NCBI GenBank assembly: GCA_030589945.1 | Contig: JAUUZN010000008.1 | Coordinates: 1-51,717, forward strand | Length of the DNA stretch: 51,717 nucleotides | From: Gammaproteobacteria bacterium | GTDB lineage: Bacteria > Pseudomonadota > Gammaproteobacteria > Enterobacterales > GCA-2746155 | Direction: 5' to 3' | In this document: piece after piece, positions 6,157 to 51,717 of the stretch | How the letters are laid out: every line of letters starts with the position of its first letter | Position numbering within the stretch: position 1 is the stretch's first letter | Position numbers and translations under genes: made by a program | Notes under the pieces: model-generated | The model's input: the letters and a program-made list of their open reading frames with translations, nothing else | Told to the model about the DNA's origin: nothing | Databases searched by the model: none

Positions 6157-7068
6157 TTATTTTATAGCGATAAGTTCCACATCAAAAACCAGCATTCCAC
6201 CTGGAGCGCCATTTCCTGGGTTTTCTCCGTAAGCCAAACCAGCTGGTATCCAAAAGCGTCTTTTTTCGCCTTCGACCATGAGCTGAACACCTTCTGTCCA
6301 ACCGCGAATGACACGATTCAGTGGGAACACAATCGTTTCACCTCTTGTTACCGAACTATCAAACATTTCACCACCTAAGGTCCAACCAGAATAATGCACT
6401 TCAACATTAGACTCAGCCGTAGGATGTATGGTTCCTGTACCTTTTGTTAACACTCTTGAAGCCAAGCCACTTTCGGTAACCGTAGCCGTAGTGGGAACTG
6501 CTGCAACATCTTCAGGAACGGCCGGTGCAGGTACTGCTTTTTTAATCGCTATGAGTTCAATATCAAAAACCAATAAGCCACTTGGTGCACCGGGTCGTGG
6601 ATTTTCGCCATAGGCTAAATCTGCAGGAATCCAAAAACGTCTTTTTTCACCTTCAACCATCAGTTGAACGCCTTCAGTCCAGCCCTTGATTACACCTTTA
6701 AGAGGAAAATCAATACTTTGTCCTCTAGCAACCGAGCTATCAAACATTTTTCCGTCCGTAGTCCAGCCTGAATAATGTACTGTAACACTGTCATCAGCAC
6801 TTGGATGTTCAGAGCCAGTTCCTTTACTTAGAACGATGGATGCAAGTCCTGAGTCTGTGACCACTGCTGATTCTGGTGCCTTTGCTACATCTTCTGGTAC
6901 AGCAACAGATGCCGCATTTATTTCACTATTCATAGTTCCTCCGGCTAATACAATGATTAGCATTATTTGTAATAGATGTGTTTGTAAAAAGTTAAATTTT
7001 AATCTGTAACGTTGTAGTTTTTGGTCTATATCACCTGACATTACATTATTCTTTAGGGTGTTAATCAT
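6157..7068 (-). CDS. Exported protein with two tandem FKBP-type PPIase domains
   Basis: Two copies of GWTEGVQLMVEGEKRRFWIPAxLAYGENPxxGAPxGxLVFDxELIAIK; start overlaps the upstream CDF stop (ATGATTAA), though an internal start is possible. Confidence 0.9.
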   Translation of the reverse strand: MINTLKNNVMSGDIDQKLQRYRLKFNFLQTHLLQIMLIIVLAGGTMNSEINAASVAVPEDVAKAPESAVVTDSGLASIVLSKGTGSEHPSADDSVTVHYSGWTTDGKMFDSSVARGQSIDFPLKGVIKGWTEGVQLMVEGEKRRFWIPADLAYGENPRPGAPSGLLVFDIELIAIKKAVPAPAVPEDVAAVPTTATVTESGLASRVLTKGTGTIHPTAESNVEVHYSGWTLGGEMFDSSVTRGETIVFPLNRVIRGWTEGVQLMVEGEKRRFWIPAGLAYGENPGNGAPGGMLVFDVELIAIK

Positions 7069-50266: not shown

Positions 50267-51250
50267 TTAATCTATGGGACTTTGAACGGCCCGGCCACCG
50301 CGATTTAAAACATGCGTATAAATTTCTGTCGTTCGTATATCGGTATGACCTAATAGCTCTTGAATGGTTCGCAGATCGTAACCGCTTTCTAAAAGGCGAG
50401 TAGCAAAACTATGTCTAAAAGTGTGGCTGCTAGCCTGCTTGAGGATTGCTGATTTTTTTATTGCAAAACGTATGCTTTTTTGAAGAATTGACTCATGAAC
50501 ATGGTGCCGCCGGAGTTTATTAGATGTTGGATCTAACGCAGGTTTTACCGCAGGAAATAAGTAGGCCCAATGCAATGAATGAGCCGCGGATGGGTACTTT
50601 CTATTTAAAGCATTCGGTAACCACGCCTCAGCACAACCTAATTCAGTATCGTATTGATGTAAGGCTCGAACATTCTTAATTTGAGACTTTAGATCTTCTG
50701 TGAGGGTGATTGGTAGTAACGTATGGCGATCTTTGTTTCCTTTGCCTCCACGAATAAGGATTTCGTTGAGACCAAAGTCGATATCTTTAACTCTTAGTCG
50801 ACAACATTCCATAAGACGTAACCCTGCTCCGTACATGATTTTAGACATTAACTGATGTGTAGAATTTTTAATAATACTAATAACAAATAAAGCTTCGTCA
50901 TGTGTAAAAACAACTGGTGGTTTTTTACGAAACTTCGGGCGTTTGAAGTTTAATTTACCCAAATCTTTCTCGAGAAAACGATGATATAAAAACACTAAAG
51001 CATTTAGTGCAATGGCCTGAGTATGAGGAGAAACTTTTCTACTAATTGCGAGATAGCTTAGATAATCATCTACATCAACAGCACCCATTTGAGAAGGATG
51101 CTTACGATTATGAAAGCGAATGTAATTTAAAATCCAATAAAGGTATGTTTTTTCAGTGCTATAAGACAAATGTTTAATTCGCATACAATGCCGGAGTTGA
51201 TCGACAAGACGAATAGGATTGTCACTGATTGGTAGCGGTATATCGTCCAT
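50267..51250 (-). CDS. intI: Integron integrase IntI (chromosomal integron)
   Basis: Tyrosine recombinase residues (GLRLMECCRLRVKDID, HTFRHSFATRLLESGYDLRTIQELLGHTDIRTTEIYTHVLNRGG) plus the IntI-specific extra segment (NRKYPSAAHSLHWAYLFPA...RRHHVHESILQKSIRFAIKKS). Confidence 0.95.
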   Translation of the reverse strand: MDDIPLPISDNPIRLVDQLRHCMRIKHLSYSTEKTYLYWILNYIRFHNRKHPSQMGAVDVDDYLSYLAISRKVSPHTQAIALNALVFLYHRFLEKDLGKLNFKRPKFRKKPPVVFTHDEALFVISIIKNSTHQLMSKIMYGAGLRLMECCRLRVKDIDFGLNEILIRGGKGNKDRHTLLPITLTEDLKSQIKNVRALHQYDTELGCAEAWLPNALNRKYPSAAHSLHWAYLFPAVKPALDPTSNKLRRHHVHESILQKSIRFAIKKSAILKQASSHTFRHSFATRLLESGYDLRTIQELLGHTDIRTTEIYTHVLNRGGRAVQSPID

Positions 51251-51469: not shown

Positions 51470-51498
51470 TAGACAAGCCCTATGTCTTTGAATAGAAT
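51470..51498 (+). promoter_or_regulatory. Candidate cassette promoter Pc (TAGACA-N17-TAGAAT)
   Basis: 5/6 matches to both -35 and -10 with a 17-bp spacer, pointing toward the cassette. Confidence 0.5.
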
Positions 51499-51539
51499 GT
51501 AGAAAAGGAAGAGTTATACCGACACCCAAAGGAATATAC

Positions 51540-51596
51540 ATGTCAAATGCTAGCAACCCACAAATATTAACCATTCGCCGTAGAATCAGCTGTTAG
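51540..51596 (+). CDS. Putative attI-embedded short ORF (18 aa, MSNASNPQILTIRRRISC)
   Basis: AAAGGAA Shine-Dalgarno 6-7 nt upstream; stop TAG lies within the GTTAGGG core. Confidence 0.5.
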   Translation: MSNASNPQILTIRRRISC

Positions 51597-51598
51597 GG
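51592..51598 (+). other. Putative attI crossover core GTTAGGG
   Basis: Matches GTTRRR of the integron core site (last base G instead of Y), about 340 nt from the intI start on the expected side. Confidence 0.55.
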
Positions 51599-51609
51599 TC
51601 TTTCCAAAT

Positions 51610-51717
51610 ATGAACTACGATGAACAATTTAGAGAGTGGCAAGATTGGCCGGAATGTAAAGCATCAGTAAGTGAATTCAGTGAAGATCTGGAAATTGTCC
51701 ATTTTTACCGAGAGAAA
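51610..51717 (+). CDS. First integron cassette ORF, partial (MNYDEQFREWQDWPECKASVSEFSEDLEIVHFYREK...)
   Basis: ATG 11 nt after the putative core, open for 36 codons to the window edge. Confidence 0.6.
   Translation, partial: MNYDEQFREWQDWPECKASVSEFSEDLEIVHFYREK

Follow-up and report, generated by a model that had tools for sequence, protein, structure and literature searches.

A short open reading frame ending at the crossover point in the attI site of a gammaproteobacterial chromosomal integron, most likely an ORF-11-type translational enhancer

The DNA analyzed (the window) was a whole contig of 51,717 nt (G000:C84) from the 3.27-Mb genome of a marine gammaproteobacterium, assembled in 224 contigs, and the attI feature was found at the very end of this contig. 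A complete intI gene encoding an integron integrase of 327 aa was located on the minus strand (50267–51250). In a profile search, the protein matched TIGR02249 (integrase_gron) with 406 bits compared to a cut-off of 265, and it also matched the Phage_integrase and Phage_int_SAM_4 domains. An alignment showed intact R-K-H-R-H-Y catalytic residues in common with IntI1, and the profile score and these residues identify the protein as an IntI-type tyrosine recombinase. The gene was neighbored by secB, a glutaredoxin gene (grx) and a rhodanese gene, and the gpsA-secB-grx-rhodanese-intI region was common to the window genome and a sister genome (G001/NORP44), whose IntI showed 70% identity to that of the window. 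The identical secB-grx-rhodanese-intI order in the sister genome shows the integron to be chromosomal and vertically kept, i.e., a sedentary chromosomal integron, in agreement with the initial annotation, which had assigned the site to a chromosomal integron. In the sister array (L226; G001:C48, 9.4–13.1 kb), one attC site was found to pair with the first cassette. More attC-like copies were read by eye in this array, and the sole sizeable ORF of its first cassette runs against the array direction.

The attI site of the window is adjacent to intI and divergent from it, and a re-check of the sequence recovered all plus-strand elements listed in the initial annotation. A candidate cassette promoter Pc (51470–51498, plus strand; 10 of 12 consensus matches) consists of TAGACA (51470–51475), a 17-nt spacer and TAGAAT (51493–51498). 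A match of this grade is no better than expected by chance alone (1 found compared to 1.6 expected); the equivalent in the sister attI (L005) is TCGACA-N17-TAGAAT. Downstream of the promoter, a Shine-Dalgarno sequence (SD) AAAGGAA (51528–51534, plus strand), with a calculated anti-SD duplex of −5.6 kcal/mol, is separated by 5 nt from the ATG (51540) of an 18-codon ORF, MSNASNPQILTIRRRISC plus stop (51540–51596, plus strand). This ORF ends in TGT TAG, and its stop codon (51594–51596) lies within the attI/cassette core GTTAGGG (51592–51598, plus strand), so that the stop is supplied by the cassette core in the frame of ORF-11 of the class 1 attI1 site. The core differs from GTTRRRY at the last base, which is not Y, and its start at 51592 matches the confirmed attI cores of relatives. 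The core-proximal motif TAGAATCAGCT (51581–51591, plus strand) is conserved and common to L005, L017, L012, L013 and a second contig of the window genome, C80. The TAGAATMAGCTGTTAR segment, which covers 51581–51596 in the window and is also present in relatives, tends to close the other frames just upstream of the core, one frame being closed by TAG or TGA and, in sites that read AATAAGCT, another by TAA. Whatever its frame, translation that enters attI is thus often terminated no later than at a TTAR cassette.

The first cassette (51593–51717, plus strand) is cut off by the contig end, 107 nt into the cassette, and the window stops before any attC. A cassette ORF begins at ATG 51610, 13 nt after the stop of the attI ORF, and is still open where the contig stops at 51717, with 36 codons visible. 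As annotated initially, it lacks a strong ribosome-binding site, its own SD being weak. No credible family was found in a Pfam search with the cassette protein fragment, and no LexA box is claimed at the attI site, where the best match carries two mismatches.

In relatives, cores were fixed by locating the cassette's own attC downstream, whose 5′ end is complementary to the bases that open the cassette. In the window, the crossover point was instead placed by comparison with C80, a contig of 6.6 kb that carries the same cassette and has no integrase gene. The final 127 nt of the window are the same as the final 127 nt of C80; the last mismatch between them is at 51590, and from 51591 on they agree fully. 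Thus, the cassette boundary G/TTAGGG lies at 51592/51593, and the crossover after the G of the core that had been assumed earlier is supported. In C80, the cassette is preceded by a second attI-like sequence (L206; G000:C80, 6346–6564, core at 6439), located just after an ada/O6-methylguanine methyltransferase gene. This site contains a 19-codon ORF, MRYICHIPQITNIRCRISC plus stop, in the same frame as the window ORF and with the SD AAGGG. In the sister genome, the homologue of ada has no attI-like site next to it. In a search of the window genome for the continuation of the array, only C84 and C80 carried the cassette start, and both break off inside the cassette after 127 nt of common sequence, as is usual where an assembler meets a repeat. 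An attC pattern derived from the sister array gave no match in the window genome.

Taken alone, the window site is only suggestive: about 21% of dinucleotide shuffles yield an in-frame ATG ORF of 8–40 codons, and the promoter match does not exceed chance expectation. The decision therefore depends on conservation. We located the attI cores of 90 nonredundant integrons; in 26 of these, IntI shared 50% identity or more with that of the window, and the other 64 were more distant. Within the close set, 14 of 26 attI sites contained an ATG ORF of 11–26 codons in the frame ..TGT/TAR, compared to 2.6 expected, and none of 400 shuffles in which the last 12 nt were preserved reached 14. An IntI tree placed the window within a 12-member clade with moderate support (SH-aLRT 88). 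An in-frame ATG ORF of 11–26 codons ending at the core was present in 9 of the 12 attI sites of this clade (1.2 expected; 0 of 2000 shuffles), in 8 of 11 when the window was left out, and in 5 of 8 after thinning of near relatives (0.7 expected). The clade boundary was drawn after the pattern had been seen, and the set with at least 50% IntI identity is therefore reported as well. The orthologous integron of the sister genome has kept a 20-codon ORF in frame. Three clade members (L008, L016, and L013) lack the frame; L016 and L013 contain small ORFs that end 6–7 nt before the core. Same-frame open stretches with GTG or TTG starts and a shared end, RRVGN(R/C)RGVDRIGC, were noticed by eye in the attI sites of L236 and L237, which suggests that counting ATG starts alone underestimates such ORFs in GC-rich hosts.

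These counts bear on one alternative, a chance small ORF in an AT-rich intergenic region. The 21% of shuffles given above would agree with it, but the proportion falls to 1.2% once an SD at least as good as that of the window is required in addition. The alternative is already disfavored by the clade statistics, the second attI-like site of the genome also has a same-frame ORF, and we consider it very improbable. Inheritance without selection is likewise an unlikely cause, since the attI stretches of the clade showed a median identity of 61%, barely above the 57% of shuffled pairs.

Outside the clade, the frame was not enriched: the 64 more distant attI sites contained 7 in-frame ORFs compared to 6.3 expected, and the Vibrio and most Shewanella attI sites in the set were without it. 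Among six additional attI sites associated with IntI of 48–52% identity, one had an in-frame ATG ORF. The claim of conservation is thus confined to the clade, and a general rule for all chromosomal integrons was rejected. Conservation of ORF, SD and frame together had been named in the initial annotation as a check; the frame and the ORF were found to be kept in the clade, but the SD was not conserved and the wider set showed no enrichment.

It could be argued that the ORF is a by-product of constraint on the DNA itself, an integrase-binding attI (A-rich stretches, TAGAATMAGCTGTTA) happening to be free of stops in this frame, with a fortuitous ATG. The core-proximal motif common to relatives is in line with this, as part of the frame is made up of such motifs, which are probably bound by IntI; a AAAACAAAAG-like stretch recurs in L009, L010, L017, and L007, and the lack of enrichment outside the clade also fits. 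The same motif closes frames b and c, which made them poor negative controls; they were dropped, and only the shuffle control for frame a was relied on. However, with the last 12 nt and the dinucleotides held constant, shuffling yields 1.2 ORFs compared to the 9 seen in the clade, and the ORFs persist despite almost complete change in the upstream attI, with start positions ranging from −43 to −70. A by-product of this kind is thus regarded as unlikely, though less so than chance.

The peptides encoded by the attI ORFs were not conserved (e.g., MSNASNPQILTIRRRISC, MPTLTKKTYNIRSKLDRISC, MTRKQKATSAVSAEYSC, and MRRSKVNTSFHLISC), as would follow if translation as such, and not its product, were what counts. 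The amino-acid sequence probably does not matter; what is kept is the start, the frame and the position of the stop. A strong SD was present in the window, L115, and L023; other relatives had a weak SD or none, with several values near 0 kcal/mol, and the SD was therefore rejected as the conserved element. In L009, L010, and L017, the −10 box of a TTGAC-type promoter (17-nt spacer) lies 7 nt before the ATG, and L011 has a weaker TTGATT match with the −10 box likewise 7 nt before the ATG; this arrangement suggests near-leaderless mRNAs in all four. The ORFs of L009, L010, and L017 share MxRKQK at their start.

At the other end of the ORF, the stop depends on the cassette. In the close set, 16 of 26 first cassettes begin with TTAG or TTAA and place TAG or TAA in the core, whereas 10 (about 40%) begin with TTAT or TTAC and provide no stop there. 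With the TTAT cassettes of L012, L017, and L030, the attI ORF stops three codons later. The initial annotation had expected a stop for any incoming TTAR cassette and, with it, a termination/re-initiation distance fixed regardless of cassette; the latter holds for TTAR cassettes only, as with TTAT or TTAC cassettes reading runs on. In most relatives the cassette starts 8–18 nt after the stop, and such short distances fit coupling between the two reading frames.

With anatomy, frame, clade conservation and crossover position shown here, the ORF in the window is most likely an ORF-11-type translational enhancer of a chromosomal integron. We consider it probable that the site is the attI of a vertically inherited chromosomal integron whose ORF works like ORF-11 and passes ribosomes to the first cassette. 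From the anatomy and from experiments on class 1 integrons, we infer transcription, translation of the ORF, coupling and a benefit. A promoter in the attI/intI intergenic region would transcribe attI and the cassette, and ribosomes would load at the ORF start, led by the SD in the window genome. After translation of 18 codons they would stop at the crossover TAG, supplied by the first-inserted cassette, and would either reinitiate at the weakly initiated cassette start 13 nt downstream or increase the concentration of ribosomes around it.

Alternatively, the ORF may be translated but serve to protect or clear the leader mRNA (Rho-dependent termination, RNase or structure) without handing ribosomes over. 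It spans much of the leader from the predicted Pc to the core, the predicted fold of the leader is weak (−16.8 kcal/mol over 136 nt), and mRNA stabilization has been proposed for ORF-17/ORF-11 with GES-1 (PMC8876359). Protection would, however, leave the placement of the stop at the crossover unexplained, and the short stop-to-start distances fit coupling instead. This explanation appears improbable to us, ranking between the DNA-level by-product and chance.

Cassettes often lack a ribosome-binding site of their own, which raises the real question of how a gene whose origin is unknown gets translated just after its capture; ORF-11 has given an answer for class 1 integrons only. The frame kept in chromosomal attI sites that have diverged suggests a similar role for some environmental integrons, whose first-position cassette would likewise be provided with translation; environmental integrons are the pool from which resistance cassettes come. 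A simple prediction follows, namely that cassettes starting with TTAR and with TTAT differ. More tentatively, a ribosome-loading ORF ending at the crossover may be an old and selected part of attI in a clade of marine gammaproteobacterial chromosomal integrons, ORF-11 being one instance of a strategy reached more than once, in which the platform supplies initiation by an SD in some species and by a near-leaderless start in others; we hold this broader view to be possible rather than probable.

In class 1 integrons, ORF-11 overlaps the crossover point of attI1, and its stop, usually TAG, corresponds to positions 3–5 of the core (GTTRRRY) that the inserted cassette brings in (PMC8876359). The cassette-donated stop, presented as a new inference in the initial annotation, is thus already known for ORF-11 (Hanau-Bercot et al., 2002; PMID 11967073, described in the review PMC8876359); what is new here is the conservation of the attI ORF frame in chromosomal integrons. 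Translational control has been described “so far” in class 1 integrons (PMC8876359), and the non-subscription literature searched describes such control for class 1 only, no report for chromosomal integrons having been found there. Like that of the window, the integron of V. cholerae (superintegron, attIA/Pc) is chromosomal and has Pc within its intI/attI region; no attI ORF of the window type was found reported for attIA in the literature searched.

Like the window ORF, ORF-17 of attI1 is an attI ORF with its own initiation region, but it ends upstream on its own stop and in another frame, and the ORFs of L016 and L013 resemble it more. ORF-18 arises when the core provides no stop (PMC8876359), as in attI1 joined to blaOXA-1-type cassettes; L012, L017, and L030 are similar in that the ORF runs on into the 5′ leader of the cassette, whereas the window ORF stops within the core. 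The closest counterpart is ORF-11 itself, likewise a short attI ORF downstream of Pc with its own SD and the frame ..G/T TAR, preceding a weakly initiated first cassette. In class 1, replacement of the SD and ATG of ORF-11 sharply lowers cassette expression, while amino-acid changes matter little (PMC8876359). The attI1 of plasmid pHB42-F1 contains MLRSRAVALKQS followed by TAG in a frame identical to that of the window ORF. Since MSNASNPQILTIRRRISC and MLRSRAVALKQS share only the frame, homology by descent was rejected and the window ORF is regarded as an analogue of ORF-11, as first suggested, with in-frame ORFs also in the nearest relatives and at the second site of the genome. Compared to ORF-11, the window ORF, a putative enhancer, lies in a chromosomal integron, has 18 codons instead of 11–12 and encodes a dissimilar peptide, and its relatives replace the SD by an apparent near-leaderless start. 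It is thus a known kind of element extended to a new setting rather than a new kind.
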